Source: an uncultured Erysipelotrichaceae bacterium (GTDB lineage Bacteria; Bacillota_I; Bacilli_A; Erysipelotrichales; Erysipelotrichaceae). From it: DNA of 54,380 nucleotides. Within the stretch, counting starts at the first letter, position 1. Every line of letters starts with the position of its first letter. This document shows positions 19,697-44,653 of this stretch, in pieces. The DNA lies in NCBI GenBank assembly GCA_947649125.1, contig CANSQL010000013.1:1-54380 (forward strand). The letters are read 5' to 3'. A program made the position numbers and the translations under genes. The notes beneath the pieces were generated by a model. That model ran no database searches. It was not told the origin of the DNA and saw only the letters and a list, made by a program, of their open reading frames with translations.

Positions 19697-19697
19697 A

Positions 19698-22482: not shown

Positions 22483-22500
22483 AGTTTATTCGCTCCGTTT

Positions 22501-22980: not shown

Positions 22981-22995
22981 TTTATTCATTCTCCT

Positions 22996-24306: not shown

Positions 24307-24308
24307 AA

Positions 24309-24503: not shown

Positions 24504-24509
24504 TCGCGC

Positions 24510-25376: not shown

Positions 25377-25511
25377 AAAAAAAGCATTTAATCGCTTAAA
25401 TGCCATGCGTCTGCAGCCTGCGTTTTTTAGAAACACAGGCTTTCCGGTGCCTCTTTATTCGGCATCAGATCGTTGTAGAGTAACAGGTCATCTCTCCCCT
25501 GTACTTCCACA
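25377..25511 (-). ncRNA. Untranslated leader or small RNA ending in two stacked hairpins
   Basis: On the minus strand an extended -10 box TGCTAGAAT lies at 25517-25525, so transcription would begin near 25511. The RNA of about 135 nt ends in a 9-bp hairpin CCTGTGTTT/AAACGCAGG (25417-25439). Then comes a perfect terminator GCATTTAA-GCGA-TTAAATGC with seven T (25377-25403). No gene lies inside. It separates the regulator genes from the structural genes, so readthrough or antitermination here could control the late operon. Confidence 0.5.
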
Positions 25512-25516
25512 CTAAC

Positions 25517-25550
25517 ATTCTAGCATGACTCTTGTACCCACCCGGTGTAC
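25517..25550 (-). promoter_or_regulatory. Putative late promoter of the tail locus with an imperfect dyad
   Basis: An extended -10 TGCTAGAAT is preceded, where a -35 would be, by the imperfect dyad GTACACCGGGTGGGTAC instead of a TTGACA-like box. This is what one expects of an activator-dependent promoter, and the sigma-like activator gene lies just upstream. Confidence 0.45.
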
Positions 25551-25553
25551 TGT

Positions 25554-27834: not shown

Positions 27835-27846
27835 ATATATCCCTCC

Positions 27847-29304
27847 CTAAAAGTTAAAGTACAAAAATGTACTTACTCCTGATAACGATATGATTGAATA
27901 GAATAACAAGAGCCCGGATACCAATGCGCTTTTTATTGTTGGAGTAAACCGGTTAATTCTCTCATTAGTATTTTTGAAAAATAGCATTGCGAATACTGCA
28001 CAGATAAACAAAATAACAGGATAAACTGCCAGTAAATATGAGCCAACATATCCTAAGCGTTTTAAAACAAATTCAATTCCGATGCAATTTAAGCTATTAG
28101 CAATCTCACTTGATAACGGTTTAAAATTAAATAATAAGATTTCCTTGATCAACATAATAGCATCATTTAATGAATCGGCTCTAAATATAATCCATGTTAG
28201 ATTTATGAAAATAAACATAATCATCCAAGATAAAGCCGGATGAATTGTTTTTATTTTATCCTTAAAAATTCTTTCAACCACCATCATTAATCCGTGTAAG
28301 ACTCCCCATACAATAAATGTGTAATTAGCACCATGCCATATTCCTGATATCAGAAATACAATAAAAAGATTGATATATGTTCTTATTTTGCCTTTTCTAT
28401 TTCCACCTAAAGGAAAATACACATAAGTACGTAAAAACCTTGTAAGTGTAATATGCCACCTTTTCCAAAATTCTGTTACTGTTAATGCTTTATATGGTGA
28501 ATTAAAATTCATAGGAAGATCAATATTAAACATTTTTGCTATTCCCGTCGCCATATCACAATACCCACTAAAATCAAAATAAATTTGGGTCGTATATGCA
28601 AGTGCTACAAAAATTGCATTCGTAGTTCCCAATTTGCCAATGCTGGAAAATCCCCAATTTGCAACATTTCCAAATGTATCTGCAATCAACACCTTTTTTG
28701 CTAAACCAAAAGAAAAAGCCATTAGACCAACTGAAAAATTATTCCAATTAAACTTCTTTTTGTCAAGATTATCAAATTGAGGAATGGTTTCATTGTGCAA
28801 CACAATAGGTCCTGCAATTAGTTGAGGAAAAAAACAAACAAAAAGAGCATACTGTCTAAAAGAATATTCCTCAATATTATTTTTGTAATTATCAATTACA
28901 TAGCTTAACTGTTGAAAAGTAAAGAAACTAATTCCTAAAGGAAGTAGAATGTTAGTAATGTTAAAATTTGTTCTAAATAAAATATTGAGATTTTGGACAA
29001 AGAATCCCATGTATTTATAATAGAAAAGTACCCCAACGTTGCCGACACATCCAATAACGAGTAGCAATAGTTTTGTCTTTTTATCTTGAGTGCTGTTCAT
29101 CATTTTTCCCAAGCCAAAGTTTAAAAAAATGCTACAGATAATAATTGGAAGATAATTGATATTGAAATAGGCATAGAACCACAGTGACATTACAATTAAA
29201 AAATACTCAGCAAGCGAGTATCTTTTAATATAATTAAGTATGTAATATCCTATCAAAGAAATAGGAAGAAAAGCAAATATAAATACATATGAATTAAATA
29301 ACAT
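27847..29304 (-). CDS. MBOAT O-acyltransferase (AlgI/DltB family)
   Basis: The 485 residues contain about eleven hydrophobic segments. The membrane-bound O-acyltransferase signature is clear: LPLGISFFTFQQLSYVID, FFPQLIAGPIV, then FWKRWHITLTRFLRTYVYFPLGGN and SGIWHGANYTFIVWGVLHG with the catalytic histidine (about residue 320). It carries an acyl group across the membrane for O-acetylation of the surface polysaccharide. The SGNH partner is encoded directly downstream. Confidence 0.92.
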   Translation of the reverse strand: MLFNSYVFIFAFLPISLIGYYILNYIKRYSLAEYFLIVMSLWFYAYFNINYLPIIICSIFLNFGLGKMMNSTQDKKTKLLLLVIGCVGNVGVLFYYKYMGFFVQNLNILFRTNFNITNILLPLGISFFTFQQLSYVIDNYKNNIEEYSFRQYALFVCFFPQLIAGPIVLHNETIPQFDNLDKKKFNWNNFSVGLMAFSFGLAKKVLIADTFGNVANWGFSSIGKLGTTNAIFVALAYTTQIYFDFSGYCDMATGIAKMFNIDLPMNFNSPYKALTVTEFWKRWHITLTRFLRTYVYFPLGGNRKGKIRTYINLFIVFLISGIWHGANYTFIVWGVLHGLMMVVERIFKDKIKTIHPALSWMIMFIFINLTWIIFRADSLNDAIMLIKEILLFNFKPLSSEIANSLNCIGIEFVLKRLGYVGSYLLAVYPVILFICAVFAMLFFKNTNERINRFTPTIKSALVSGLLLFYSIISLSGVSTFLYFNF

Positions 29305-29362
29305 ATTAACAAATCCCTACCTTCTATAGTTTTTTAAATTATTTCACCCTAAGAATTTGAAA

Positions 29363-30430
29363 TTACTTATAAAACTCCACATACCACTCGGCAAATGCTC
29401 TCAGTCCGGTCCTTAAATCCGTACTTGGCTTAAACCCAAAATCCTGTTCTAACGGAGCTGTATCGGCATATGTCACAGGGACATCACCCGGCTGCATTGC
29501 CACCAACTCTTTATGCGCTTCAAAATCATAGCTTTCAGGCAATACCTTTGCGGCTATCAGCTCCTGCTGCAGAATATCGACAAATTCCAGTAAATTCTCA
29601 GGGTGGTTATTACCGATGTTATAAACCTTATACGGCGGTATCGGCAATCCATCCGCTCCAAGCTTCCTATCCGGCGCTTTCTGCATTACTCTGACAATTC
29701 CCTCCACAATATCATCAATATAAGTGAAATCTCTTTGACAGTTTCCATAATTGAATATTTTAATTGTCTCATTATTTCTCAATTTATCCGTAAATCCGAA
29801 ATATGCCATATCCGGTCTGCCCGCAGGTCCGTATACGGTAAAAAAACGCAATCCCGTAGAAGGTATATTATATAGCTTACTATAGGCATGTGCCATCAAT
29901 TCATTTGATTTCTTGGTTGCCGCATAAAGTGATACCGGATTATCAACTTGATCCTCTGTAGAATACGGCACCTTTTTATTCGATCCGTATACACTCGATG
30001 ATGAAGCATAGACGAAATGCTGAACACCCAGCTTTCCGTTATCATAGCTGTGTCTGCATTCCTCTAAAAGATTATAAAAGCCGATCACATTGCTTTGTAT
30101 ATAAGCATCAGGATTGGTAATCGAATATCTGACACCTGCTTGCGCAGCCATATTGATAACGATATCAAACGAATATTTTTCAAATAAAGAATGAATAAAA
30201 TCTCTGTCGGAAATATCGTTTTTATAAAATATAAATTTTTCAAATTTCTTTAGTTCATCCAGTCGATATTCCTTAATTCTCACATCATAATAATCATTGA
30301 CATTGTCAACACCGATAACTGTAACATTAAATTCCGTCAGAAGTCTTTTACATAAATTAGAACCGATAAAGCCTGCAGCTCCTGTCACTAATACTACTTT
30401 ATCTGTTAAATCAATATTATACTTTAACAT
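29363..30430 (-). CDS. UDP-glucuronate 4-epimerase (NAD-dependent epimerase)
   Basis: The 355 residues form a short-chain dehydrogenase-type epimerase: GAAGFIGSNLCKRLL (NAD site, about 17-31), a long DVRIKEYRLDEL insertion typical of glucuronate epimerases, then ASSSSVYGSNKKVPYS and YAATKKSNELMAHAYS with the YxxxK pair. TGLRFFTVYGPAGRPDMAYF and RDFTYIDDIVEGI complete the pattern. It converts UDP-glucuronate to UDP-galacturonate, using the product of the dehydrogenase encoded just upstream. The gene is less AT-rich than its neighbours. Confidence 0.88.
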   Translation of the reverse strand: MLKYNIDLTDKVVLVTGAAGFIGSNLCKRLLTEFNVTVIGVDNVNDYYDVRIKEYRLDELKKFEKFIFYKNDISDRDFIHSLFEKYSFDIVINMAAQAGVRYSITNPDAYIQSNVIGFYNLLEECRHSYDNGKLGVQHFVYASSSSVYGSNKKVPYSTEDQVDNPVSLYAATKKSNELMAHAYSKLYNIPSTGLRFFTVYGPAGRPDMAYFGFTDKLRNNETIKIFNYGNCQRDFTYIDDIVEGIVRVMQKAPDRKLGADGLPIPPYKVYNIGNNHPENLLEFVDILQQELIAAKVLPESYDFEAHKELVAMQPGDVPVTYADTAPLEQDFGFKPSTDLRTGLRAFAEWYVEFYK

Positions 30431-30435
30431 AATAT

Positions 30436-31668
30436 CTAGTCCCTTCTAAAGATATCTCTTGTATAAACTTTTTCTTGAACATCATCAAGACATGAATCGT
30501 ATCGATTCGCTACGATTGCCTGTGCCTTTTGTTTAAATTTATTTAGATCATTGATAACCTCACTTCCAAAGAAGGTGGTTCCGTCTTCTAAGGATGGCTC
30601 ATATATGATAACCTTGGCTCCCTTTGCCTTGATTCTTTTCATGACCCCTTGAATCGAGGATTGTCTGAAATTATCACTGTTTGATTTCATCGTTAAACGG
30701 TAGATTCCGACCACGATTTCCTTTTCCTTGGCCGAATCATAGAAATCGTTTGACTGATAACCACCGGCAATTTCTAAAACCTTATCGGCAATATAATCCT
30801 TTCTCGTTCTGTTTGATTGAACAATTGCGCTCATCATCTCCTGCGGTACATCTTCGTAATTAGCGAGTAATTGCTTTGTATCCTTCGGTAGACAGTATCC
30901 GCCGTAACCAAAAGATGGATTGTTGTAGTGGGTTCCGATGCGCGGATCGAGGCATACGCCGTTAATGATCTCTTGAGTATTAAGTCCCTTCATTTCACAA
31001 TATGTATCCAATTCATTAAAATAGGATACCCTTAATGCCAGATAGGTATTCGCAAACAGCTTAACAGCTTCTGCTTCCGTAAAGCCCATAAATAACGTAT
31101 CGATATCTTTTTTTATCGCTCCCTCTTGTAGCAGTTCGGCAAACGTATGTGCTGCCTTTAATAACTTATCATCGTTTAAGTCAGTTCCGACGATGATTCT
31201 TGACGGATACAGATTATCGTAAAGCGCCTTTGATTCTCTTAAAAACTCCGGCGAGAAAAGAATATTGTTTGTGCCGTATTTTTTTCTTATGCTTTCTGTA
31301 TAGCCGACCGGAATTGTACTCTTAATAATCATAACAGCATCGGGATTTATTCGCATAACTGTTTCAATTACATTTTCTACTGCGCTTGTATCAAAGAAAT
31401 TCTTTTTTGAATCATAGTTGGTGGGTGCGGCAATCACAACAAATTCAGCATCCTTATAAGCTTTTTCTGCATCCAATGTCGCATTTAGATTCAAATCCTT
31501 TGTACTTAAAAAGGCTTCGATTTCATTATCTTGAATCGGAGACCTTCTTGCGTTTATCATATTCACTTTTTCTTCAATAATATCAACTGCCGTAACTTCA
31601 TGGTGCTGTGCTAATAAAGTGGCTATGCTTAAGCCTACATAGCCCGTTCCTGCGACTGCGATTTTCAT
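30436..31668 (-). CDS. ugd: UDP-glucose 6-dehydrogenase family protein
   Basis: The 410-residue protein starts [20 protein letters not shown] (Rossmann site). It has [65 protein letters not shown] and the catalytic-cysteine motif [14 protein letters not shown] (about residue 255). The length, and the order of NAD-binding, central and UDP-binding domains, fit UDP-glucose/GDP-mannose dehydrogenases. With the epimerase next to it, UDP-glucose is the likely substrate, giving UDP-glucuronate for the polysaccharide. It lies 5 nt upstream of the epimerase gene. Confidence 0.92.
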
Positions 31669-31671
31669 AAT

Positions 31672-33150
31672 TTACTCTCCTCTTTTCCATTTAAATCTTA
31701 AAAAATCTTTATTAAAGACATAAAATACCGCTGTAATTGTAACCAATGAAATCACTGATACTTTCAATGCAAAAATAATCCAAGAAATATACGTATAATT
31801 TATAAAATCAATTTCCGATGATAAAAGCAGAATAAGCCCAACACAAACACTGTCTAACAGAATCAACTTAATAAATCTAATATATTTCCTACTTAAAATA
31901 TTATTTCTTAAATAATATACAGATGATAATATTCGGAATGACACCGAAACACAGGTACCGATCGCTACACCGATCAAACCTAATCTATTCACAAAATAAA
32001 TCGAAATGATGATATTTAAGATACACTCAATTAAACTGTACATTTGAGTTTGCTTAAAATGACCGGCTGAAAAAATAATCGTTGTATAGGGATATCTCAG
32101 AACATATACTGCATAGCTGATTACAATCCAGTATGCAAAGGCAGGGTTAAAATAATCCACATCGGTAACTCCCTTTGTATAAACTAAAACGAATGGAACA
32201 ATTGTATTAATAGTAATGCTGAAAATTAACGTAACTATGTAGTGAAAAAAGCACTCGAATTTATTAAAGCTTGAGTAAAGCAGTTGATAATCATCACTTG
32301 CTAATATTTTACCAAAGTAAGATTTATAACCTGTAGTAAATGAAATCAAAATACTTTTTAAATTATTCAACGGCATCGCATAAATGTTATAGATTGAAAC
32401 ATTTGCCAATGATGAAAAAACAGTCAGAACAAAAATATCTATATTATTCGCAATAACCGTAGACATGTGCTGAAACATGCCGCTCCATTTATTAGGAAGA
32501 TAATCTTTACCATCATCCTTAAAATTAAAGTTATAATGATGATGTACATAATAGCTTAAACAAATCGGTCTGGCTAAAAATATTATTGATGATGTCAGTT
32601 TAACAAATTGAATACTGAAATCCAGATTGATCAACAAAATAGAAATAAATATATTAAATATGAGTGTTAATGAATTTATCGTTAAAGAGATGTATTCCTT
32701 TTGATCTGAATTTAATATCAAAGAATTACAGATTCCGAAGTAATATTGCGCAAACGAACTGACAGATAATGAAAGCAATAAAGTAGCTGTAAATAAGAAC
32801 CCAAAACCTGAATTGTTCACGTAATTATAAAAAAACATTAATACTGCTATGTAAACAATCAAGATATATGCTACTTTTTTAAAATATCTTTGTGCACTCT
32901 TATATATTCTAAATATTGTTTCATCATCTTTTTCCGCCATAGGTTTATAAAGAGTAGATTGTACAACTGAGCCTACACCTAAATCTAATAAAGAAATACT
33001 CGAGAGCATTTGAGTCATTGAAGTTGATAAGCCGTAAACTAAAGAGCCGTATTTATTCAAGAATAAATTAGGAATAATTAGACCGGAAACTATTGCTATA
33101 AATTGATAAAACAGAGAGATTAAATTATTAATGTATAATTTCTTTTTCAT
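31672..33150 (-). CDS. wzx: Polysaccharide flippase (Wzx, MOP superfamily)
   Basis: The 492-residue protein starts at MKKKLYINNLISLFYQFIAI behind GAGGG; the longer frame uses TTG inside the previous gene. It has 12-14 hydrophobic segments, with LIIPNLFLNKYGSLVYGLSTSMTQMLSSISLLDLGVGSVVQ in the first third, the pattern of Wzx/O-antigen exporters. It carries lipid-linked repeat units across the membrane for the polymerase encoded at 34392. The start overlaps the end of the upstream glycosyltransferase gene. Confidence 0.88.
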   Translation of the reverse strand: MKKKLYINNLISLFYQFIAIVSGLIIPNLFLNKYGSLVYGLSTSMTQMLSSISLLDLGVGSVVQSTLYKPMAEKDDETIFRIYKSAQRYFKKVAYILIVYIAVLMFFYNYVNNSGFGFLFTATLLLSLSVSSFAQYYFGICNSLILNSDQKEYISLTINSLTLIFNIFISILLINLDFSIQFVKLTSSIIFLARPICLSYYVHHHYNFNFKDDGKDYLPNKWSGMFQHMSTVIANNIDIFVLTVFSSLANVSIYNIYAMPLNNLKSILISFTTGYKSYFGKILASDDYQLLYSSFNKFECFFHYIVTLIFSITINTIVPFVLVYTKGVTDVDYFNPAFAYWIVISYAVYVLRYPYTTIIFSAGHFKQTQMYSLIECILNIIISIYFVNRLGLIGVAIGTCVSVSFRILSSVYYLRNNILSRKYIRFIKLILLDSVCVGLILLLSSEIDFINYTYISWIIFALKVSVISLVTITAVFYVFNKDFLRFKWKRGE

Positions 33151-34375
33151 ATGATCCCTCAATAACTGAAATCCATTCAGCTACTATTTTTTCTGCTGTA
33201 AAATCATTTTTTCTTTCTTGTAGCTTTTGCTTGTAATGAAGCTGCATGCTTTCGTTCTGCAATAGATCAACAATACCTTGTGCCATGGTTAATTCTGCAT
33301 TAGTTAACGGATCATCATAGTTATATTTATTACCGTCAAAACAAGGGACAATCACTCCATATTCCCCATGCACTATTTCATCCACTTTATCAACTTTTAA
33401 ATTCGGATCAAGCAACTCCCTGGCTCCTGCTGTATAATCGGTAGAAATAATCGGAACTTGACAATAAATAGCTTCAACTACAGCATTTCCTAACCCTTCA
33501 TCAAGTGACGAGAAAGCAAAAATTTCACAGTTATCATAATAGTATTTAGGATTACCCACAAAACCGACTAAATATATGTTATTCTGCAAGTTATAATCGA
33601 TAATCAGCTTATTTAAATATTCGTTCAACGGTCCCACTCCTAATATATACAATTTAGCTGTAGGTATAGCTTTTATGACTTCTGAAAAGGCTCGGATTAG
33701 GTGCCATTGACCTTTACAATTGGACAAGCGACCTACATTTAAAATGTTATTATTTCCTTCAATTTTCAAATAGTTACTATTTTCAGTAGTAAATTCATTG
33801 ATTACACAAGCATTATAAATAACTTTAAATTTACTTTCCGGAATTTTATATGTAAAAGACGCATCTTTTTTTACTCCTTCGGAAATCGCAATGATCTGAT
33901 CACATTTTTTAAGATTAAACCTTATCGCATAGTTTTTCAAAAATCCTGATTCTCTTATACTGGTATAATTTCTTAAAGAAATAATATTTTTTTCTTTAGT
34001 TTTTGAAAGAACATTCAATATATCAGCGGGAAATAAAAAACTTATCGCCGCATGTATATTGTATTGTTTTTTTAACCTTTTCAAAATGATTACTCTGAGA
34101 ATAAGTTTAATTACCCTTTTTACAAAAGGTATCCGCAATAGAATATTACTATGAGCGTAGTTTTCTTCTATTTCTTTTTTCAGCGATATTAATTGGCCTT
34201 TGTAATCATAAAAATGTTCACTTGGACTTTCAATAATTGTTAGATAAACATTATAAAATTTGCTTAATTCAATACTCAAATTTCCGACTGTTTTTTCCGC
34301 TCCGCCACCGACCATGTTTGGAATTATAAACATAATATTCTTCTTAACGCTTGTTTCTTTTTTATTTGCTGACAT
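33128..34375 (-). CDS. Glycosyltransferase family 4
   Basis: The 415 residues show the GT-B fold of GT4 enzymes: IPNMVGGGAEKTVGNLSIEL at the N-terminus, GRLSNCKGQWHLIRAFSEVI, LYILGVGPLNEYL and the C-terminal SSLDEGLGNAVVEAIYCQVPIISTDYTAGARELL with the E-x7-E nucleotide-sugar motif. It adds one sugar to the lipid-linked repeat unit on the cytoplasmic face. The sugar cannot be predicted. It lies between the polymerase and flippase genes. Confidence 0.9.
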   Translation of the reverse strand: MSANKKETSVKKNIMFIIPNMVGGGAEKTVGNLSIELSKFYNVYLTIIESPSEHFYDYKGQLISLKKEIEENYAHSNILLRIPFVKRVIKLILRVIILKRLKKQYNIHAAISFLFPADILNVLSKTKEKNIISLRNYTSIRESGFLKNYAIRFNLKKCDQIIAISEGVKKDASFTYKIPESKFKVIYNACVINEFTTENSNYLKIEGNNNILNVGRLSNCKGQWHLIRAFSEVIKAIPTAKLYILGVGPLNEYLNKLIIDYNLQNNIYLVGFVGNPKYYYDNCEIFAFSSLDEGLGNAVVEAIYCQVPIISTDYTAGARELLDPNLKVDKVDEIVHGEYGVIVPCFDGNKYNYDDPLTNAELTMAQGIVDLLQNESMQLHYKQKLQERKNDFTAEKIVAEWISVIEGSYEKEIIH

Positions 34376-34391
34376 ACTATTTCCCTCACTT

Positions 34392-36482
34392 TTATTTTAC
34401 AGCAGGTAATTTTATATACTCACCTAATTTATAATCCCATTCTTCAGGTTCAAATGGTACAAAACCGGAGAAATGAAAAAATGTCATCTCACCAAAATAA
34501 ACTTTTCCGTCTATCTCATAAAAATCCACCCTAACCTGAGAAATACCTTTCGATAATTTTGATGCCAATTCTTTCATCAGTTCAAAATGAATCGGTTTTT
34601 CAGGCAAAGCTGCAGAATTGGGATGACCGTTTCTGATATCTAAAAAATTGTAATCCATATCAAAAAAATCAAATTTAGTTTCTTCATTTTCGTTGTTGCG
34701 ATCAGAAGCAACAAACATTAACTTAGGATCTCCGTCAAAACAGAAAAATTTATAATCCTTCAAATCGGATTTATTGCTGTCTTCTAAATATTTCTCTGCA
34801 AATACTAACGGTTTTACATTTTTATACGGCCACTCTCTATGGTCGTAATAATAATTAGTTTCCAATTGATTTTTCAAAAATTGTTTTGCTTCGTCTAAAT
34901 TGAAAGTTTTCTTATCTTTACAGATTCTGATTCCGCCGCAATCATGTGAACATTTCAACACAAATTGCTCCGGCAAATTCTCGATATCAATTTCTTGTAC
35001 AGAATCCCACACTCCTAATAAAGGAACAACATATTCTTCTCCAATTACTTTTTCAACATACTGTTTTACTTTGTATTTATCAACCAGTGTTGTATAGAAA
35101 GGATTTCTGTCATATAATTTTAACCATTGTAATTTTTCGTTGTAAGTTACAGGGTTATTTAAATCTAATTTTTTATGGAAGAAAATTCTATATTTTAATT
35201 TTATATAATATTTATCAGGGAGAATTTTCAACATTTTCTTTATGACTGATTTTATATTTATCTTTTTTTTCATTTGATCGGTGCTTGAAGCTTCAATCTC
35301 ATTAACATGCAATATCCCGCCGTAATAAATAACAAAATAAAAGAATAAAAATATCAACGGTCGTTGTATTGCCGACATAAAGAACAAGGCTATAAAAATA
35401 ATTGAATGCTGACTCTTATTTGATAATCTGATTCCTGTATAAATATAAGCTGCAATTAAAACCAGGAAACCAACAATTCCAAATTCATAAATGATCGACT
35501 TATATGAAGAAGCCATAGCATTTTCAATCTGTTTCACTGAATTAAATCCTTTACCGAAAAGAACTTCATTACTGTTTAACAAATCATCATAAGCCGTATC
35601 AAATTCTTTGTTGGTTCTGTTGTTTCCTATAATAAGACTTGATTCTGTCAATTCAAATCTACTAAAAAAGCTGTTTAATGTTTGATTATGGAAATCTATA
35701 GAAGGAGCAACAAGTAAGAAACTTACTAATGCTAAACTTATTAAGACAGTCAGCTTTTTATTGAACATAAACAGCTTTGCAAAGTAATAAATTAAAATCA
35801 ATACGAAAAATGAAAAAGAAGTTGATAAAATACCGCCGATTAACAATATAAATTTATCAAATTTTGGTGCATCAGAGCCTTTAATAATATATAATAGTGC
35901 AAGATATGTTCCCAGTTTTCCGGGCTCATTGAACAGTCCACATAATCTAATTTCATTTCCGTGTTTATAAATTGCTAAAACAAACCACTTTATGTACTTA
36001 TCAATGCCTGTTCCATAATCTCTGTAATATTCGACTTCTTCAAATCCAATATTTATATTTAAAACATAAAACACATATACAAGGATTGAAATTGCGGTAG
36101 TAACTAATACAATGTAATAGTAATATTTAAAAATACGTATTTTGATTTCCTTTGGAGATAATAAGAATGAACATGATAATATAAATGCTGTTAAATAATA
36201 GCCATGATACCCTCCGTATGTATTTAATATTAATAACAATAAATATATACATGGCACAGAAATTAAATAAAGATTATGTAACAGCAGTTTTTTTGTAAAC
36301 AATAAATATAATACAAATAAGATAGTAGTAGCGTAAGTGCATAATGTTGATAGATTTCCAAGTAATGGTTCATATTTTACATTAATGAACGCGGTCATAC
36401 TTAGAAAAACAGCAACTAACGCTACAAAAAAACAAATAATTCTCCCTGCTTTATCTTCATATTTATTTAGTAAACTTTGCAT
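34392..36482 (-). CDS. Fusion of a Wzy-like polymerase with a TupA-like ATP-grasp domain
   Basis: The 696 residues combine two proteins. Residues 1-395 hold about ten to eleven membrane segments and an external loop between 255 and 320, like O-antigen/capsule polymerases (Wzy); RLCGLFNEPGKLGTYLALL is typical for that family. Residues about 400-696 are soluble and match the TupA-like ATP-grasp family: NPVTYNEKLQWLKLYDRNP, YTTLVDKYKVKQYVEKVIGEEY, FVLKCSHDCGGIRICKDK, FAEKYLEDSNKSDLKDYKFFCFDG and VRVDFYEIDGKVYFGEMTFF. TupA-type enzymes are linked to amino-acid ligation onto uronic acids in teichuronopeptide. The fusion suggests coupling of polymerisation with decoration. The reading frame is continuous with no sign of an error. 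Confidence 0.85.
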   Translation of the reverse strand: MQSLLNKYEDKAGRIICFFVALVAVFLSMTAFINVKYEPLLGNLSTLCTYATTILFVLYLLFTKKLLLHNLYLISVPCIYLLLLILNTYGGYHGYYLTAFILSCSFLLSPKEIKIRIFKYYYYIVLVTTAISILVYVFYVLNINIGFEEVEYYRDYGTGIDKYIKWFVLAIYKHGNEIRLCGLFNEPGKLGTYLALLYIIKGSDAPKFDKFILLIGGILSTSFSFFVLILIYYFAKLFMFNKKLTVLISLALVSFLLVAPSIDFHNQTLNSFFSRFELTESSLIIGNNRTNKEFDTAYDDLLNSNEVLFGKGFNSVKQIENAMASSYKSIIYEFGIVGFLVLIAAYIYTGIRLSNKSQHSIIFIALFFMSAIQRPLIFLFFYFVIYYGGILHVNEIEASSTDQMKKKINIKSVIKKMLKILPDKYYIKLKYRIFFHKKLDLNNPVTYNEKLQWLKLYDRNPFYTTLVDKYKVKQYVEKVIGEEYVVPLLGVWDSVQEIDIENLPEQFVLKCSHDCGGIRICKDKKTFNLDEAKQFLKNQLETNYYYDHREWPYKNVKPLVFAEKYLEDSNKSDLKDYKFFCFDGDPKLMFVASDRNNENEETKFDFFDMDYNFLDIRNGHPNSAALPEKPIHFELMKELASKLSKGISQVRVDFYEIDGKVYFGEMTFFHFSGFVPFEPEEWDYKLGEYIKLPAVK

Positions 36483-36518
36483 TCTTATACCTCCACATGA
36501 ATATATGCTAATTCGGCA

Positions 36519-37595
36519 TCATAACCTTTTCAAATAGTTAATTAACTTATCAATTGAATTTTCACTGTTAATTTGTATAATCTTTTTTCTGGCTGATCGC
36601 CCTATTTCTTCTGAAAATTCTTTCTTGTTTAAACAAGAAAGAATAGCCTGTGTTAAACCTTTCACATCATTATTATTAATCAAAATACCATTCATACCGC
36701 TGTCAATTAAATCACTTGGCCCGGTAGGACATGCGGTTGATATACATGGTAATCCGCATGACATTGCTTCCATCAATGAGTTAGGCATGCCTTCAAAATT
36801 TGAAGTTAAGACATATAGATCGGCATCAGTCAATAATTCCCCTACATTATTCGATCTCCCATACAGATATACACAATCTTCCAAATTAAGTTCTTGAATC
36901 ATGTTTTTAATGTTATTTTGTTCCGGTCCGTCTCCGACTATAGTTAATAAGAATGAATGATTATTTTCTTTCAAAGTATATAGTGCATGCAACATTAAGG
37001 AATGATTTTTCTGCTTCGTCAATCTGCTGATCATTATGATATTTTTGATTTCTCTATACTCCCTTTTTTCATGTTTTTCTAAAAATTCTTTAGGTACTGT
37101 ATTAAAGATAATAATGCCTCGATTTCTCACTTTTTTAGGAAAATAATCCATTTGTTCTTTATTTTGAAAAATACAACCATCTGCCAAGTATACCGATATA
37201 TTTCTCAAAACTCTAAATACCTTATTTTGAGGAGAAAATTGCGGAGCTGCTCTTATTGTTTCAATCAAATAATTGTTCAAGCCTAAATTTGCTAATGTGC
37301 ACTGCAGTCCAATATGCGGAATAAATGGAATTATATATAGATGATTTCCTTGTTCTTTTAGGTATGATCTAATTTTTAATATAGTCTTTACCTTTGAAGA
37401 AGCATTATAATCTTGCTCGCTATCAAATAATGCTTTTACGGGAATCTTTGATGCAATATCGTATTCATTTTCGATTCTGTAATGAACTAATATATTTGCA
37501 TTTATACCTTTTTCAACTAAATCATAACACCATTTAGCTGCCATTTTTTCAGCGCCGCCGTTTGAAAGGAAAGGTACTACAATAATAACTCTCAT
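36519..37595 (-). CDS. Glycosyltransferase family 4
   Basis: I start at MRVIIVVPFLSNGGAEKMA (37595), whose ATG overlaps the stop of the upstream gene (ATGA) and follows GAGG; length 358. The GT4 features are SNGGAEKMAAKW at the start, MISRLTKQKNHSLMLHALYTL, LTIVGDGPEQNNIK, then LTSNFEGMPNSLMEAMSCGLPCISTACPTGPSDLI with the E-x7-E motif and a short helical end. It transfers a sugar to the growing repeat unit. Confidence 0.9.
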   Translation of the reverse strand: MRVIIVVPFLSNGGAEKMAAKWCYDLVEKGINANILVHYRIENEYDIASKIPVKALFDSEQDYNASSKVKTILKIRSYLKEQGNHLYIIPFIPHIGLQCTLANLGLNNYLIETIRAAPQFSPQNKVFRVLRNISVYLADGCIFQNKEQMDYFPKKVRNRGIIIFNTVPKEFLEKHEKREYREIKNIIMISRLTKQKNHSLMLHALYTLKENNHSFLLTIVGDGPEQNNIKNMIQELNLEDCVYLYGRSNNVGELLTDADLYVLTSNFEGMPNSLMEAMSCGLPCISTACPTGPSDLIDSGMNGILINNNDVKGLTQAILSCLNKKEFSEEIGRSARKKIIQINSENSIDKLINYLKRL

Positions 37596-39820
37596 AAACT
37601 TCCTCTTTCTTTTATTAAAATTTTTCTCCATGCTTCTAAAACTTTTTCCGGGTCATATTTTTTCAAAAAATCTTTCGCATTTTCTACGATTGTTGTATTG
37701 TCATTTGATAAAGCAAAATCAATTACTCGAATTAAGTCATCTAAATCTTCGTTTTTAAATATATATCCATTTTTATTATGAGTAATGATTTCATTGCTTC
37801 CCGGATAGTTGCTGGTTACACAGGGTATTTCTAACATCATTGCTTCTAATAACGCATTAGAAACTCCTTCAAATCTTGAAGGAAGAACAAATAAAGCTGA
37901 ACTTTTTATATGATTATAAATATCGTCAACTTGCCCTTTTAAACAAACGAAAGATTGCGCGCCTAAATCATTGATCTGCTTATTCAGCTCTTTTTCCAAA
38001 GTTCCCTTTCCATATATTTCAAGTACAAATTCAGGATATTTTTCATGCAAATTTGAAACAGCATCGATTAGTAATTTATGATTCTTTTGGTATTCTAATC
38101 TCCCAACCGTAACTATCTTATTTTCTATCTTACTTCCGGAAATATTTGATAATTCCGGATTTATCGGATTAGGAATGATTAAAGACTTTCCTTGCACTTT
38201 TTTACTAAAAACAGACTTTGCATATTCTGTCTGAAACACTACTATATCAGCTACATTATATAGTAAGTTTGTTAAAAAAATGAGTGAACGACTGCGCCCA
38301 TCATTATTTGGATCATTTCTTTCAGAAACTATCAAATTATTTTTAATACCTAAGTTTGAAATAATTGTCAGAATGTTGATTCTTCCCGCAAAACTTAAAA
38401 TAGTATCCGGCTGATATAATCGAATAGTTTTTCTGATATTTTTAGCCCAATAAAAAACATTCTTAAAATAAGAACCTGTTTGGGATAAATCGATTATTTG
38501 CACGTTTGAATTCAAAGCGTAGTCACTATTGAAGTTCAGCAATGTCAGAATATAGATATCGCACTCAGTTAAATAATTGGCGATGTTGGATAAAACCCGT
38601 TCAGCTCCACCTTTTGACATACTTCCGCAAACAAAAAAGAGCCTTTTTCTTTCGATATTAGGAATCCCTTCTTCACTTTTTGTATATATTTTCAGCATTT
38701 CTTTTTCTATTTTTTTTAAATCATATTCTTTGATAATGTTTTGGTTGTTAACTCCAAATTGCGATTTTATTTTATTAACATAAACCGCTAATTGAAAAGA
38801 TATTTCTTTTGTATTTAACAGATATCCACCATAATAATTTTTTATCAGATCATTATTCCCTCTGATATTTGAAGCAATGCAAGGTAATCCACATGCCATA
38901 GCTTCCATCAGTGCTACCGACAGTCCTTCTCTTTTAGAAGGGAATACAAATACATTACATGACTTCATAATTCTAATCACATCACTTCTATATCCAAGAA
39001 GGTGTAATCTTTCTTCTACATGTAATTCTTTAGCTAAACGCTCATACTGTTCTTTTAACGGACCTGTTCCACAGATTACATAGTGAATATTGTTAGGTAA
39101 TTCCGGCAATGATTTTATAATTGCCTTATGGTTCTTATTGTCATTTAATTCTCCTACTGAAAGTAATAAAAAGGAATCATTGGGAATGCCTAATTCTTTA
39201 CATAATTCTTCCTTGCTTCCTTGGATTGAATTTATCTTTTCAATATCAATCCCAACTCCGGGGATATATTCAACGATTCCGTTTTTCTTTAGTTTAAAGT
39301 TCTTTGCTGCTGCATAATCTTCTTTATTGATCGTTATTAAGACATCTGTATATTTGGCAGCACACTTTTCAATGTTTTTAAAAATGAAATTCTTAATTGG
39401 ATTATTTCCTTTAAAAAAGTGAAAACCGTGGGCTGTATAAATCATTCTGCACGTATCATATATATTACTTTTTTTGTATGCCAAACGAGTTATAAAACTT
39501 GAAATAGGAGTATGTGTATGAATTAGAGTATATTTTTGTTCATTCATTAATTGTTTCATTTGCTTAAATGATCTGATATGAGCACCAATTTTAAGCATAC
39601 CTCTTTCAAAATCTATTTGATGAATTTGAATATATTCATTTTCTAAATATTCTTTTAGCTTCTGTAATTCTTTCTCTGAAATAACATCAAAAGTCTGAAA
39701 ATTAGTAGCTACATCGATCTCGTATCCTAAATTTTGAAGTACTTTTATATCATTAAGCAAAAATTGTTTTATCATATAAGGGGTCGTTGCTGTAATTAAA
39801 GCTTTTTTTCTATCTTTCAT
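37592..39820 (-). CDS. Double glycosyltransferase: two GT4 domains in one chain
   Basis: The 742 residues contain two complete GT4 modules. The first (1-375) has a TATTPYMIKQFLLNDIKVLQ start, LLSVGELNDNKNHKAIIKSL, YVICGTGPLKEQYERL and FPSKREGLSVALMEAMACGLP. The second (about 395-742) has FVCGSMSKGGAERVLSNIAN, TVGRLEYQKNHKLLIDAV, LEIYGKGTLEKEL and LPSRFEGVSNALLEAMMLEIP. Each has its own E-x7-E. The enzyme could add two consecutive sugars. The order of modules fits a fusion of two neighbouring genes of such a cluster. It overlaps both neighbours by a few nucleotides. Confidence 0.9.
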   Translation of the reverse strand: MKDRKKALITATTPYMIKQFLLNDIKVLQNLGYEIDVATNFQTFDVISEKELQKLKEYLENEYIQIHQIDFERGMLKIGAHIRSFKQMKQLMNEQKYTLIHTHTPISSFITRLAYKKSNIYDTCRMIYTAHGFHFFKGNNPIKNFIFKNIEKCAAKYTDVLITINKEDYAAAKNFKLKKNGIVEYIPGVGIDIEKINSIQGSKEELCKELGIPNDSFLLLSVGELNDNKNHKAIIKSLPELPNNIHYVICGTGPLKEQYERLAKELHVEERLHLLGYRSDVIRIMKSCNVFVFPSKREGLSVALMEAMACGLPCIASNIRGNNDLIKNYYGGYLLNTKEISFQLAVYVNKIKSQFGVNNQNIIKEYDLKKIEKEMLKIYTKSEEGIPNIERKRLFFVCGSMSKGGAERVLSNIANYLTECDIYILTLLNFNSDYALNSNVQIIDLSQTGSYFKNVFYWAKNIRKTIRLYQPDTILSFAGRINILTIISNLGIKNNLIVSERNDPNNDGRSRSLIFLTNLLYNVADIVVFQTEYAKSVFSKKVQGKSLIIPNPINPELSNISGSKIENKIVTVGRLEYQKNHKLLIDAVSNLHEKYPEFVLEIYGKGTLEKELNKQINDLGAQSFVCLKGQVDDIYNHIKSSALFVLPSRFEGVSNALLEAMMLEIPCVTSNYPGSNEIITHNKNGYIFKNEDLDDLIRVIDFALSNDNTTIVENAKDFLKKYDPEKVLEAWRKILIKERGSL

Positions 39821-40595
39821 AAACCAAATCTCCGAAACATTTTGTTATTAGTCCGACTTTTCCAATCATTAACTTAATGATTGGATTAAAAAAAGGAATA
39901 TAAAGTACTTTTACATTCTCTGCATTCATTTGTTCTCTGACTATATCTACTGTACACATATACTTGTTATTTTGAGGAAGGTAAATTCCTCCGACATTTT
40001 CATCAATATAGCCTTTAATACATTCGCACAGCTTTTCTACAGTAATTGAACTTCTTTGATTTTTGATTGTAGGAAATACGTGAAACTTTCTTACTGCACT
40101 AAATAATTTTCCTAGATTACCCGGTGCTCCTTCACCGTATACCATCGGTGGTCTTACAACACATATTGTAAAAGAAGTATCTTCCAGTTCTTTAATTTGT
40201 TGTTCAGCTTGATACTTGCTAATTCCATAATAGGTATTTGGTTTGCATTCTGTCTCTTTTGTTATAAATTTATGAGAATGGTTTAGACCATATACACTCA
40301 TTGAACTCATAAAAATAAACTGTTTTACTCCGGATTCTTTCGCTTTTTTTGCGACTTCAACCACTAAATCACGATTCACTTTATAATATAATTGTTTATT
40401 TTCGAGCACTTCTTTCATATGTGCAATACCGGCCACATGATAAACGACATCATACTGTGAAAAATCATGTTGTTTCCAACTTTCATCTCTCATTTCAAGT
40501 TCATTTGCTTGATATTTATCCGGATACTTTGAAAGCTCTTCAATGAAATGAGTTCCGATATAACTGCCTTTTCCTGTTACGAGTATTCTTTTCAT
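39810..40595 (-). CDS. NAD-dependent sugar epimerase/dehydratase (short)
   Basis: The 261 residues are clearly an extended short-chain dehydrogenase: MKRILVTGKGSYIGTHFIEE (a GxGSYIG variant of the GxxGxxG motif), VVYHVAGIAHM, IFMSSMSVYG and YYGISKYQAEQQI with the YxxxK pair, then CVVRPPMVYGEGAPGN. It lacks the longer C-terminal domain of many epimerases. Proteins of this type sit beside the priming sugar transferase in Gram-positive polysaccharide clusters and make the first nucleotide sugar. The substrate is unknown. It overlaps the sugar transferase stop by 4 nt. Confidence 0.85.
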   Translation of the reverse strand: MKRILVTGKGSYIGTHFIEELSKYPDKYQANELEMRDESWKQHDFSQYDVVYHVAGIAHMKEVLENKQLYYKVNRDLVVEVAKKAKESGVKQFIFMSSMSVYGLNHSHKFITKETECKPNTYYGISKYQAEQQIKELEDTSFTICVVRPPMVYGEGAPGNLGKLFSAVRKFHVFPTIKNQRSSITVEKLCECIKGYIDENVGGIYLPQNNKYMCTVDIVREQMNAENVKVLYIPFFNPIIKLMIGKVGLITKCFGDLVYER

Positions 40596-41206
40596 TGTTG
40601 AACCTCTTTCTTTATTTCACCGGTTCCTCCTTCAACAACGCCGTCTGATTTAAGAACAGATGTTATTGTTCCAAGGAAGCATTTACAATCAAATAGGAAA
40701 GAGATATGTTCCGCATAATAACCATCTAATTGTGCTTTCACATCAATTTCAAGTTCGTCTCTGCCGTTGATTTGTGCCCAACCTGTTAATCCCGGTTTGA
40801 TATCATTCGCTTTATATTTATCTCTTTCTTCAATTAAATCATACTGATTCCATAAGGCCGGGCGCGGTCCTATAACAGCCATATCTCCTTTTAAGATATT
40901 GATGATCTGCGGCAGTTCATCCAAAGAGGTTTTTCTTAAGAATCTCCCGATAGAAGTAATATACTGATCCGGATTTGACAACAAATGAGTCGGACAATCC
41001 TTAGGTGTATCTGTTCTCATTGTTCTGAATTTCAAGATATTAAAATATTCTTTATTCTTGCCTACACGCTTTTGTTTGAAAAAAACAGGACCGCTTGAAG
41101 TCCCTTTTATAATGAGCGCTATTACTATGAATAAAGGCGATAATACGATAAGTCCGATAAGACTTAACATAAAATCAATCCCTCTTTTCAAACCGTTTTG
41201 ATACAT
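40592..41206 (-). CDS. Priming sugar-phosphate transferase (bacterial sugar transferase)
   Basis: The 204 residues include one N-terminal membrane segment (about 12-32, FMLSLIGLIVLSPLFIVIALI) and the conserved catalytic part: GPVFFKQKRVGKNKEYFNILKFRTM, FLRKTSLDELPQIINILKGDMAVIGPRPAL and PGLTGWAQINGRDELE. It moves a sugar-1-phosphate to undecaprenyl phosphate and so starts the repeat unit. It is the first enzyme gene of the operon and directly follows the terminator at 41228-41253. An AAAGGAATGAG site precedes the ATG. Confidence 0.94.
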   Translation of the reverse strand: MYQNGLKRGIDFMLSLIGLIVLSPLFIVIALIIKGTSSGPVFFKQKRVGKNKEYFNILKFRTMRTDTPKDCPTHLLSNPDQYITSIGRFLRKTSLDELPQIINILKGDMAVIGPRPALWNQYDLIEERDKYKANDIKPGLTGWAQINGRDELEIDVKAQLDGYYAEHISFLFDCKCFLGTITSVLKSDGVVEGGTGEIKKEVQQ

Positions 41207-41378: not shown

Positions 41379-41394
41379 TTTCAACCCTCCAAAC

Positions 41395-41453
41395 AAAAAA
41401 AGTATAGCTCCCCTTACCCATAGGAATCCCTTTCCTACGGCAGAGAAGCTATA
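41395..41453 (-). terminator. First intrinsic terminator in the polysaccharide leader
   Basis: On the minus strand TATAGCT/AGCTATA (extended by wobble pairs to about 11 bp) encloses a second small hairpin TAGGAA/TTCCTA and is followed by CTTTTTTT. It lies 50 nt after the second nusG-like gene. Confidence 0.75.
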
Positions 41454-41458
41454 ATCAA

Positions 41459-41500
41459 GCAATCCGCTGACGGCAGCGAATCCACACGCATCAGCTGACT
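41459..41500 (-). promoter_or_regulatory. Leader hairpins, candidate recognition element for the NusG-like antiterminators
   Basis: Between the stop of the second nusG-like gene and the first terminator lies CGCTG-CCGT-CAGCG (41465-41478), extended outward by wobble pairs. A TCAGCTGA palindrome (41491-41498) lies before it. Known LoaP proteins need an RNA hairpin in the leader; this is the place where one would be. The assignment is inference. Confidence 0.4.
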
Positions 41501-41503
41501 GCT

Positions 41504-41992
41504 TTATTTTAATAAAATACCCGCCTTTATATTGCGATCAAGAAAGGTCAGTTTTAAAACCGCCACCATATCCCGCTTATCCGTTGCGATGATTTCCTCT
41601 TGAAACAACAACAGCGGTCCCTTCGTCACAATCGTTTTCCCGTTTTCCTTATACCCTTCACTCATTTCCAATATTCCGTTTTGATTCCACAGTCGTTGAT
41701 ATAAATCAATTTCATCCTTCGTCAAAGCGGATACCTCGCTTTTCTTTAATTCTTTGATAATGCCGTTTCTTTCATCACTCAAGCTGCTCAATAAAGCATC
41801 AAATTCTCTCTGATTCAGCTCTGATTTGATAAACACATATCCGGGAAACATTGTTTTCAACAAAATTTGATTACTTAATCGATGATAGCTTTCCATTTGC
41901 GGTATAAAGGCTTGAAGCTTGCCTTTCCCGTTTAATCTTCGGCAGACACCTTCACACTTTAATGTCTGACAATACAGCACATAATAATTCAT
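41504..41992 (-). CDS. NusG-family specialised antiterminator, second copy (diverged)
   Basis: The 162 residues have an NGN domain (MNYYVLYCQTLKCEGVCRRL, QAFIPQMESYHRLSNQILLKTMFPGYVFIK) and a shortened, degenerate KOW part (TIVTKGPLLLFQEEIIATDKRDMVAVLKL) lacking the usual glycines after GPL. NusG paralogues of the LoaP/RfaH type let RNA polymerase read through terminators of long polysaccharide operons. It begins 4 nt within the preceding small gene and ends 50 nt before the first leader terminator. A tandem pair of such genes is unusual; the changed KOW could mean a different partner or a competitor role. Confidence 0.85.
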   Translation of the reverse strand: MNYYVLYCQTLKCEGVCRRLNGKGKLQAFIPQMESYHRLSNQILLKTMFPGYVFIKSELNQREFDALLSSLSDERNGIIKELKKSEVSALTKDEIDLYQRLWNQNGILEMSEGYKENGKTIVTKGPLLLFQEEIIATDKRDMVAVLKLTFLDRNIKAGILLK

Positions 41993-42213
41993 TTGCCTGA
42001 CCGCCTTAAAGCGCGATGCTTCAGATATGTATAGATCTGTTTATGAGTTCGACAGATCTTTCCGTCATCCACAAGCCAAATATCGCTTTCCGCACCGATT
42101 TCACTCAGCTCCTCAATCGCAATTTCCAACATTTCTTTGATAAGCGTGTTATCAGGCTCAGCTCTCCGTTTAACATTGCCTGTTTTCGGGTCTGCATATC
42201 CTTGCCTTGTCAT
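41989..42213 (-). CDS. Small basic protein between the two nusG-like genes
   Basis: I do not recognise these 74 residues. They are basic at both ends (MTRQGYADPKTGNVKRRAEP; THKQIYTYLKHRALRRSGK) with an acidic helix in the middle (LIKEMLEIAIEELSEIGAESDIW). Its ATG overlaps the stop of the first nusG-like gene, and its stop overlaps the start of the second, so the three are translated as one unit. A role as co-factor of the antiterminators is possible (inference). Confidence 0.7.
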   Translation of the reverse strand: MTRQGYADPKTGNVKRRAEPDNTLIKEMLEIAIEELSEIGAESDIWLVDDGKICRTHKQIYTYLKHRALRRSGK

Positions 42214-42728
42214 AACGATACGCTTCCCTTGCGATTGATTACCTCAAGCGGCAGTACCATTTTTTGTCCGAGAAATGTATTACCTAACAGCGCTGTGCGT
42301 TTATGACGATCTATCTTTACGATCTGATTTTCCAGCCCCTGAAGCGGGCCTTCAATCACTGTCAGCTCCTCATTTTCATACCTGCCCAAGGAATGTCGTA
42401 TCACTCCGTTATGGTTAAACAATAAGGAAAGTGAATGCTCCTCCTGCCGATCTAAAGCACTGAATTGATGATTACCCAGTAATACACCGATTCCCCGAAT
42501 GGCCTGAAAAAAGGCTTTATACTTTTCCTGCAGAGCTTCCTCATCAAGAGCGCTTTTAATAAATATATAATCGGGATAAAGCTTTTTCAGCTGATACTCA
42601 CGAATGCCTTTGCCTTGAAACCATTTTTCCACCATCGGAATAAAGGCCTGCATATCCTCACAGCGATTGATCGCCTCCAACAGCTTTTGATTCGCAGTCT
42701 GCTTCGTATGTAATACATACCAGAACAT
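42210..42728 (-). CDS. NusG-family specialised antiterminator (LoaP-like), first copy
   Basis: The 172 residues start MFWYVLHTKQTANQKLLEAI and continue QAFIPMVEKWFQGKGIREYQLKKLYPDYIFIK (NGN domain). They end with a well-kept KOW domain: LTVIEGPLQGLENQIVKIDRHKRTALL. The IDRHKR segment is typical of LoaP-like proteins. It is the first gene of the polysaccharide transcription unit, and its ATG lies only 17 nt from the inverted repeat of the invertible segment. Its expression therefore depends on the orientation of that segment. GGAGGG precedes the ATG. Confidence 0.9.
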   Translation of the reverse strand: MFWYVLHTKQTANQKLLEAINRCEDMQAFIPMVEKWFQGKGIREYQLKKLYPDYIFIKSALDEEALQEKYKAFFQAIRGIGVLLGNHQFSALDRQEEHSLSLLFNHNGVIRHSLGRYENEELTVIEGPLQGLENQIVKIDRHKRTALLGNTFLGQKMVLPLEVINRKGSVSL

Positions 42729-42745: not shown

Positions 42746-42769
42746 ATCATAGATTAGGTTAATCTACGA
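42746..42769. repeat. Left inverted repeat of the invertible segment (24 bp)
   Basis: The core TAGATTAGGTTAATCTA is itself a dyad of two 7-bp arms around GGT. The full 24 bp is repeated exactly, in reverse orientation, at 43866-43889. This is the form of a tyrosine recombinase crossover site. Confidence 0.9.
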
Positions 42770-42774
42770 CTTTA

Positions 42775-42803
42775 TTTATACCACATTTAAGCATAAAAAT
42801 CCA
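42775..42803 (-). promoter_or_regulatory. Outward promoter inside the invertible segment, driving nusG and polysaccharide genes
   Basis: On the minus strand TGGATT (42798-42803), a 17 bp spacer and an extended -10 TGGTATAAA (TATAAA at 42775-42780) point toward the nusG-like gene. The transcription start would fall in the inverted repeat. Between repeat and gene there is room only for a ribosome site, so no other promoter exists on that side. Confidence 0.65.
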
Positions 42804-42890
42804 GTTATTTTTAATTCAGAGGTCATCGCCAAATCTTTTTTCAAATAGACTGATACAACAACAAACATATATCATTTATTACATTTTCTT

Positions 42891-42941
42891 TTGCTTTTCC
42901 TCTTTCCATGATGTCTAATATAGAAATATATAGGAAAGAGG
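42891..42941 (+). promoter_or_regulatory. Recombinase promoter with a 9-bp inverted repeat
   Basis: TTGCTT (42891-42896), 17 bp and TCTAAT (42914-42919) form a plausible promoter. CCTCTTTCC (42899-42907) and GGAAAGAGG (42933-42941) are perfect complements lying in the spacer and at the ribosome site, a likely operator or, for a longer transcript, a ribosome-site hairpin. Confidence 0.5.
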
Positions 42942-42949
42942 TATTAAGT

Positions 42950-43876
42950 ATGGAACAAATCACTTTTAATGAGCTGACTTATGAATGGCTGAGCTGCAGA
43001 AGGCTGTATATCAAGCGCTCAACCTTTGTCAAATATGAAGCGGTTATCACAAAGCACATATTTCCTTATTTCAGTGCAATACCGCCGAAAGAAATCAAAA
43101 GTCAAACGCTTATGTCATTTTTTGAATTGAAAATACAGCAAGAGCTTTCCTACAGTCTGTTGTGCTCAATCAAAAATATTCTTGTTTCTATTCTTGAATA
43201 CGGGATAGAAAATTATTCATTAAGGCAAATGAATTTTAAACAAATTCGCTTTGCTTCAAAAGTACAGGCAAAAGCGATACTATCCGGAAGCGAGCGAAAT
43301 AAGATTATACAGTATACAAGAAAAAACCGTAACTCCTTGTCACTTGCCATGCTTTTGGCCTTATACGGTGGACTTCGCTTAGGGGAAATTTGCGCTTTGA
43401 AATGGGACGATGTTGATTTTGATAATCAAGTGATCAAGGTTATGGGAACTGCTGTAAGACTGAAGTGCTTTGATACAAAGGATAAGAAAACGGAATTGGT
43501 TATTTTACCGCCGAAATCACAGGCTTCCTATCGCGAAGTGCCTTTATCAAGCTTTTTATCCGGTTATTTAAAGAGATGCTTTAATAAAAAGGGAAGATAT
43601 TTACTCTCAAACAGCGAAAAAATATATGAGCCGCGACGTTTGGAAAGACAATTCAAGACGTTTTGTATCGGTAATGATATTAACTGTACTTTTCACGGCT
43701 TAAGACACAGCTTCGCTACTGCTTGTGTCAGAAGCAATGTGGAAATAAAGGCATTAAGTGAAATATTGGGTCATTCTAATGTTTCGATCACCTTGAATGT
43801 TTATGTTCATACATCATTGGAACAGAAAAAAAGAGAAATAGAGAAGCTTATGACACCTGATATTATCGTAGATTAA
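42950..43876 (+). CDS. Tyrosine site-specific recombinase of the invertible switch
   Basis: I take the ATG at 42950 behind GGAAAGAGG; the longer frame lacks a site. The 308 residues have a SAM-like N-terminal core-binding domain (1-110) and a catalytic domain with ALYGGLRLGEICALKWDDV (Arg), the TCTFHGLRHSFATACV box (HxxR), LGHSNVSITLNVYVHTS (His and the Tyr nucleophile). All key residues are visible. The last four codons and stop lie in the right inverted repeat, so gene and sites form one 1.1 kb unit. It should invert the segment and thus switch the polysaccharide operon. It could also act on other sites elsewhere in the genome. Confidence 0.92.
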   Translation: MEQITFNELTYEWLSCRRLYIKRSTFVKYEAVITKHIFPYFSAIPPKEIKSQTLMSFFELKIQQELSYSLLCSIKNILVSILEYGIENYSLRQMNFKQIRFASKVQAKAILSGSERNKIIQYTRKNRNSLSLAMLLALYGGLRLGEICALKWDDVDFDNQVIKVMGTAVRLKCFDTKDKKTELVILPPKSQASYREVPLSSFLSGYLKRCFNKKGRYLLSNSEKIYEPRRLERQFKTFCIGNDINCTFHGLRHSFATACVRSNVEIKALSEILGHSNVSITLNVYVHTSLEQKKREIEKLMTPDIIVD

Positions 43877-43889
43877 CCTAATCTATGAT
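43866..43889. repeat. Right inverted repeat of the invertible segment (24 bp)
   Basis: This is the exact reverse complement of 42746-42769. It covers the end of the recombinase gene and lies 15 bp before the -35 box of the mntP promoter. Confidence 0.9.
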
Positions 43890-43939: not shown

Positions 43940-44035
43940 GATGTTATAAGGGAGTAGTTGGCTCAAAGAGTCGCTGTGCCGACATACTGACAGATCAATC
44001 AATCAAGGTCTGTCCGGTAAGCGTTAAACGACAAG
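43940..44035 (+). promoter_or_regulatory. yybP-ykoY manganese riboswitch aptamer
   Basis: The conserved pieces of the yybP-ykoY class are present in order: TATAAGGGAGTAGTTGGC, then GTGCCGACATACTGACAG, GTCCGGTAAGCG and AACGACAAGAC. P1 would form between TATAAG (43945-43950) and CTTATA (44037-44042), and the latter is also the base of the terminator stem, so both cannot exist together. Manganese binding should favour P1 and so allow transcription of the manganese exporter gene behind it. Confidence 0.92.
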
Positions 44036-44075
44036 ACTTATACATGTATTTTTATACGTGTATAAGTTTTTTTAT
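44036..44075 (+). terminator. Riboswitch-controlled terminator before mntP
   Basis: A 14-bp stem from ACTTATACATGTAT (44036-44049) and TATACGTGTATAAGT (44053-44067) is followed by a T-rich run. Its 5' arm contains the P1 strand of the riboswitch, making it the expression platform. Confidence 0.88.
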
Positions 44076-44089: not shown

Positions 44090-44653
44090 ATGAGCATGTT
44101 ATCAGTATTTTTTATCGGTGTCGGGCTTTCCATGGATGCCTGCGCCGTATCCTTTGCGAAAGGCATGTGCCTAAAGGAAAAGGCCAAGCGATATGCGGTG
44201 CTGCTTGGCTTTGCGTTCGGTCTTTTTCAAGCCGGTATGCCGTTGTTGGGATGGTGGATCGGCCATTATTTTGAAGGCTTTATTACCGTGATCGATCATT
44301 GGATCGCCTTTGTTTTATTAGGCGCGATCGGTTATCATATGATTCAAGAGGCAAAAGAAAATGAGAATGAAACCATCAGTCATACCTCGCATATTCCGCT
44401 TAAGGATATCATCGTCCTTGCGATTGCCACAAGTATCGATGCGCTTGCGGTAGGTATCAGCTTTGCGTTTCTACAGGTCGATATTCTTACGGCAATTCTT
44501 TTGATCGGCAGTACGACCTTTGTGATCAGCTTCGCCGCGGTCATCATCGGTAATCGCTGCGGCGGCTATCTGGGCAAATATGCGGAAATGATCGGCGGTA
44601 TTATTCTTATCGCTATCGGCTTAAAAATTCTGATTGAGCATTTGTTGAGCTGA
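44090..44653 (+). CDS. mntP: Manganese efflux pump MntP
   Basis: The 187 residues have six membrane segments in two related halves. The conserved acidic motifs are MDACAVSFAKGM (about 16-27) and SIDALAVGISFAF (about 123-135), the paired MDA/IDA signatures of MntP. It exports Mn(II) to prevent toxicity. GGAGGTAG lies before the ATG, directly after the riboswitch terminator. The neighbouring invertible segment would, in its other orientation, aim its outward promoter at this leader. Confidence 0.94.
   Translation: MSMLSVFFIGVGLSMDACAVSFAKGMCLKEKAKRYAVLLGFAFGLFQAGMPLLGWWIGHYFEGFITVIDHWIAFVLLGAIGYHMIQEAKENENETISHTSHIPLKDIIVLAIATSIDALAVGISFAFLQVDILTAILLIGSTTFVISFAAVIIGNRCGGYLGKYAEMIGGIILIAIGLKILIEHLLS

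Follow-up and report, generated by a model that had tools for sequence, protein, structure and literature searches.

A probable invertible switch carrying its own tyrosine recombinase in front of LoaP-like genes and a polysaccharide operon

The window (the whole 54,380-nucleotide stretch of DNA analysed here, from a gut-type bacterium) includes a segment, 42746-43889, bounded by two 24-nt inverted repeats that are 100% complementary and separated by 1096 nt, the left one at 42746..42769 and the right one at 43866..43889 (neither is assigned a strand). These repeats are beyond chance, as 200 Markov shuffles of this 5-kb region produce no perfect inverted repeat of more than 14 nt. Between them lies a gene of 308 amino acids (42950..43876, plus strand) whose last codons and stop codon fall within the right repeat. 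The open reading frame is intact and has Pfam matches to Phage_integrase (PF00589, 6e-27) and to a SAM_3 N-domain, and residues R143, H249, R252, H275 and Y285 are invariant in the recombinase alignment, which gives the R, H-x-x-R, H and Y of a tyrosine recombinase catalytic domain. The protein does not qualify as a Xer recombinase, with 92.4 bits for XerA, 66.7 for XerC and 54.1 for XerD against NCBIfam cut-offs of 220, 335 and 330 bits. The first-pass annotation, made from the sequence alone, had proposed perfect 24-bp inverted repeats around a complete tyrosine recombinase gene that sits inside the inverting DNA, and both parts are borne out. Upstream of the gene, a block at 42880..42949 (plus strand) is kept in three species and presumably holds its promoter and ribosome site. 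A candidate hairpin hiding that ribosome site (CCTCTTTCC..GGAAAGAGG) was rejected, as the fold of 42904-42952, a stretch that covered part of the 5' arm only, is no better than those of shuffled sequences.

Each repeat has the internal dyad that the first-pass annotation described as that of a crossover site. The dyad is odd-centred, and 65 of the 72 repeats of the wider family (see below) share both this centring and common arms, with the consensus TNTCGYAGANT-N5-ANTCTRCGAAA (also written TTTCGYAGANT-N5-ANTCTRCGAAA). Arms of about 11 bp around a variable centre, as found here, are what is expected of tyrosine recombinase sites. The 2.4-Mb genome has a single site pair matching the family consensus: the core 17-mer of the repeat has no further copy at up to 2 mismatches, and looser matches across the genome are not commoner than those of a reversed-pattern control. 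These counts rule out a master invertase with many sites. From the position of the gene, the co-conservation of gene and site and the absence of other sites, we infer that the recombinase acts on its own repeats, and probably it is this embedded enzyme that flips the segment.

On the left, the segment adjoins two tandem NusG paralogues on the minus strand, the first at 42210..42728, with a ribosome site that abuts the left repeat, and the second at 41504..41992. LoaP is the best-scoring family for both, at 104.6 and 88.9 bits; these scores are below the curated cut-off of 125 bits (NCBIfam NF033641), and we therefore call the genes LoaP-like. The housekeeping NusG is located elsewhere in the genome, and a further NusG paralogue lies outside the window (G000:C26:4143-4643). 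After the second paralogue comes a structured leader (z of -6.1 for the fold) with two hairpins, both on the minus strand and both with paired stem changes: a UUCG-loop hairpin at 41458..41503, a candidate LoaP-type recognition hairpin, and a hairpin followed by a T run at 41392..41453, an intrinsic terminator that precedes the polysaccharide genes. Relatives keep both hairpin and terminator, 7 of 22 pairs having changed on both sides, and the loop of the leader hairpin differs in more distant relatives. This succession of a UNCG-type leader hairpin and an intrinsic terminator is the one seen in Bacillus velezensis, where LoaP antitermination at the next terminator requires a UNCG-type hairpin (PMC12691694). 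Beyond the leader, the polysaccharide operon (26770..41206, minus strand) includes a sugar transferase, epimerases, glycosyltransferases, a TupA ATP-grasp protein, a UDP-sugar dehydrogenase and an MBOAT acyltransferase. Domain matches agree with the first-pass annotation in making a polysaccharide operon the target of control; this operon is led by antiterminator genes, and the architecture suggests antitermination as the means. Directly downstream of the operon, at about 13000-26000, the window carries a cluster of phage tail genes (sheath, tube, tape measure, tail terminator) that is either a prophage or a tailocin.

The other neighbour of the segment, beyond the right repeat, is mntP (44090..44653, plus strand, by domain match). 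The region before it, 43940-44075, looks like a structured leader with a terminator-like hairpin at 44033-44070 and is reminiscent of a manganese riboswitch; a known riboswitch was rejected there, as Rfam gives no match even at an E-value of 1.

The promoter facing the LoaP-like genes is read from sequence at 42775..42803 (minus strand), on the inner side of the left repeat. It has an extended -10, TGGTATAAA, at 42775-42783 and a -35, TGGATT, at 42798-42803, with a spacer of 17 nt, and the predicted transcription start is near 42768, at the inner edge of the repeat. The distance from the repeat to the nusG-like ATG is just 17 nt (AATTTAGGAGGGTAGCG, minus strand), which confirms that only a ribosome site fits there. 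Three species of the genus have one and the same sequence over about 50 columns in the block that holds the promoter; they vary in the middle part of the upstream region. Of 18 nusG-linked cassettes, 16 have an outward extended -10 lying 3-13 nt inside the left repeat, against 2.75 expected from shuffles. Such a motif occurs at the right end in 2 of the 18 (against 1.2 expected) and at a mid-gene control position in 4 (against about 1.8). The outward extended -10 of the first-pass annotation thus holds as a predicted promoter, which sequence conservation places inside the segment and aims at the flanking gene. Outward promoters at both ends were rejected for the family, given that the right end is not above chance. 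The window and one sister species (G002) do have a weaker outward extended -10, TGATATTAT, at the right end, so the opposite orientation might own a promoter; its TG is lost in a second sister species (G003). In most relatives a terminator-like hairpin sits just outside the far-side repeat, where it would stop the outward promoter in the other orientation. The window's genus has no terminator directly at that repeat, which counts against the explanation we prefer, although the window does have the terminator-like hairpin further on, before mntP.

Both of these other species of the genus carry the cassette, inverted between the same flanks. For G002, the flanks align to the window in one direction (6060 bp at 96.2% and 1375 bp at 95.7%) and the segment aligns in the opposite direction (1144 bp at 96.2%), with breakpoints within the repeats, which are perfect in both genomes. 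With 42746-43889 inverted in silico, a single alignment to G002 (4610 bp, 95.4%, 5 gaps) takes the place of the three. G003 has the same arrangement as G002. The window thus represents the divergent form, with the promoter towards nusG, and the other two the co-directional form, so that both orientations occur with the same flanks in a comparison between species, each represented by one sequence. A repeat of 24 nt is shorter than the usual assembly k-mers, which makes it unlikely that the orientation is a repeat artefact. The invertible segment proposed by the first-pass annotation is supported by this exact inversion. A search of viral contigs for the junction found none. In the in-silico inversion, the junction that joins the recombinase end to nusG reads CCTGATATTATCGTAGATTAACCTAATCTATGATAATTTAGG. 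The homology with G002, and with the sister-species loci L041 and L042, ends at 41395, at the leader terminator, with a different polysaccharide operon beyond, which suggests that the regulatory module is common and the sugar operon is exchanged. An independent case comes from a Lachnospiraceae genome with two paralogous loci (L130 and L138), where cassettes 95% identical are inverted relative to flanks 92-94% identical. These two cassettes adjoin a helicase gene.

A scan of the species genomes plus 316 genomes of the order gives 152 distinct recombinases, of which 76 have flanking inverted repeats. About 19 loci are nusG-linked, the window and some 18 others in the order; they adjoin the tandem LoaP-like pair, and both orientations occur. 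The divergent loci are the window, Beduini massiliensis (L083), L207 in genome G074 and L193 in genome G073, and the remaining 14 to 16 are co-directional, two of them (L185 and L186) with no flanking repeat detected. On the recombinase tree, in which L207 is a long branch of unsure placement, orientation needs 3 changes, at least 2 of them forced by well-supported branches. In L193, a TAG stop breaks the recombinase and the repeats are still there, in divergent orientation, possibly a locked switch; this locus also counts against our preferred explanation. Cassettes of like build occur before FctA pilin-like or DUF7601 surface proteins, a D12/N6-N4 DNA methylase, a LytTR response regulator and FHA proteins (L051, L160, L062, L063, L089, L058 and L095). 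At two loci (L091 and L124), recombinases of this family lie between far longer inverted repeats, of 39-84 nt, and these loci are perhaps a gene-shuffling system and not a promoter switch.

We are confident, if short of certain, that 42746-43889 is an autonomous invertible switch with a self-encoded recombinase and an outward promoter that acts through LoaP-like antitermination of a polysaccharide operon. The first-pass interpretation is supported and largely right. The recombinase would recognise the dyad site in both repeats and invert the segment that bears its own gene. In the orientation of the window, the extended -10 at the left repeat would fire outward into the two LoaP-like genes, and the antiterminators would enable RNA polymerase to read through the leader terminator into the polysaccharide operon; we infer promoter activity and phenotype and, from the architecture, antitermination. 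The state with the promoter towards nusG would then be one of high antiterminator and polysaccharide expression. In the opposite orientation, the promoter would face away and the antiterminators would be reached by recombinase read-through only, with expression lower or differently regulated. Very probably, the cell's sugar coat is switched up and down in this way by DNA flipping.

How far down is a question on which a second reading bears. In the co-directional state, the recombinase stop lies in the repeat and the nusG start follows about 30-33 nt on with no terminator between, which suggests that the opposite state may be one of reduced expression and not of none. The first-pass annotation had called the window orientation ON, which is a reading from the sequence; a simple OFF for the opposite orientation does not stand, as transcription of the recombinase gene would then run on directly into that of the antiterminator. 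It is quite possible, at somewhat less than an even chance, that both orientations express the antiterminators, one from the outward promoter and the other by recombinase read-through, with the flip altering the level and coupling recombinase transcription to the operon. This variant is compatible with the explanation we prefer, and the terminator-free junction and the predominance of co-directional loci among the nusG-linked set speak for it. Against it, recombinase genes usually have weak expression, and the outward promoter is probably the strong one, to judge by the insulating terminators on the far side. With recombinase and antiterminators on one transcript in the co-directional state, a flip may alter the link between flipping and expression. 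We offer still more tentatively the generalisation that a wide Bacillota family of self-contained tyrosine-recombinase switches uses own variants of one site and has no silent orientation, a strong outward promoter alternating with a recombinase-antiterminator fusion transcript, so that flipping rewires feedback.

It is unlikely that the difference between the sister species is an old fixed inversion in a switch that is now immobile. A single sequence per species and the decayed recombinase of L193 fit such a history, against which the recombinase and its sites show no decay and are under constraint (98% and 93% identity, with catalytic residues retained), the repeats are perfect in the window and in G002, and orientation changes several times on the tree. 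A mobile element with terminal repeats, simply inserted upstream of nusG and with no regulatory role, is very improbable, and we reject it on the precise inversion and the conserved location: the same recombinase family does occur with flanking repeats at many other loci and in other families, but the cassette is kept beside the tandem LoaP-like genes across many species, its outward promoter is conserved, nusG has no room for another promoter, and the inversion leaves the flanks intact.

An autonomous switch of this kind combines features of several known systems. In Bacteroides fragilis, UpxY is a NusG paralogue leading a polysaccharide operon, and the Mpi/UpxY capsule promoters are like the present locus in having an invertible promoter before such an operon. 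The Hin segment of Salmonella carries an outward promoter and so resembles the cassette in combining one with an embedded recombinase; Hin differs in belonging to the serine recombinases, in using a Fis-bound enhancer and in controlling flagellin. The Hin gene lies within its inverting segment, and Mpi is a serine recombinase that acts in trans on many regions (PMC5903667). Unlike Mpi, with its many genomic sites, the present system has a single site pair and a tyrosine recombinase that lies inside the one segment that it presumably inverts. RecV of Clostridioides difficile is closer in being a tyrosine recombinase of Bacillota with invertible regulatory segments, but one RecV is needed for several separate switches (PMC5903667) and is not embedded in the segment. 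LoaP of the Bacillus velezensis dfn and mln operons shares the NusG paralogue and the UNCG-type hairpin followed by a leader terminator (PMC12691694); no invertible promoter is described there, and here there are two tandem LoaP-like genes, both under the cut-off. For gut Clostridia, the part of PMC11892184 available to us links inverton group 139 to tyrosine invertase group 35 by proximity (intersecting or within 5 kb), similarly tying a tyrosine invertase to a site family in Bacillota. By its description in that part, the invertase is proximal, not embedded, and carries no LoaP link; compared on this description, the group 139 family possibly overlaps with the present one. We found no literature linking LoaP with invertible promoters, which is weak evidence because subscription journals are mostly outside the coverage. 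The locus is known in kind, as an inverton with a Hin-like layout, and new in that the switch embeds a tyrosine recombinase, sits on a LoaP-type circuit and belongs to a common site family.

The finding extends phase-variable surface polysaccharides in the style of Bacteroides to Bacillota (relatives in the Coprobacillaceae and Erysipelotrichaceae), with a different class of enzyme and in a self-contained form, and connects DNA inversion with LoaP-type antitermination. As site and layout are conserved, such switches can be found from assemblies alone, and cassettes of this type also precede pilin-like surface proteins and DNA methylases. If neither orientation is silent, flipping would rewire how flipping rate and surface-polysaccharide expression feed back on each other.
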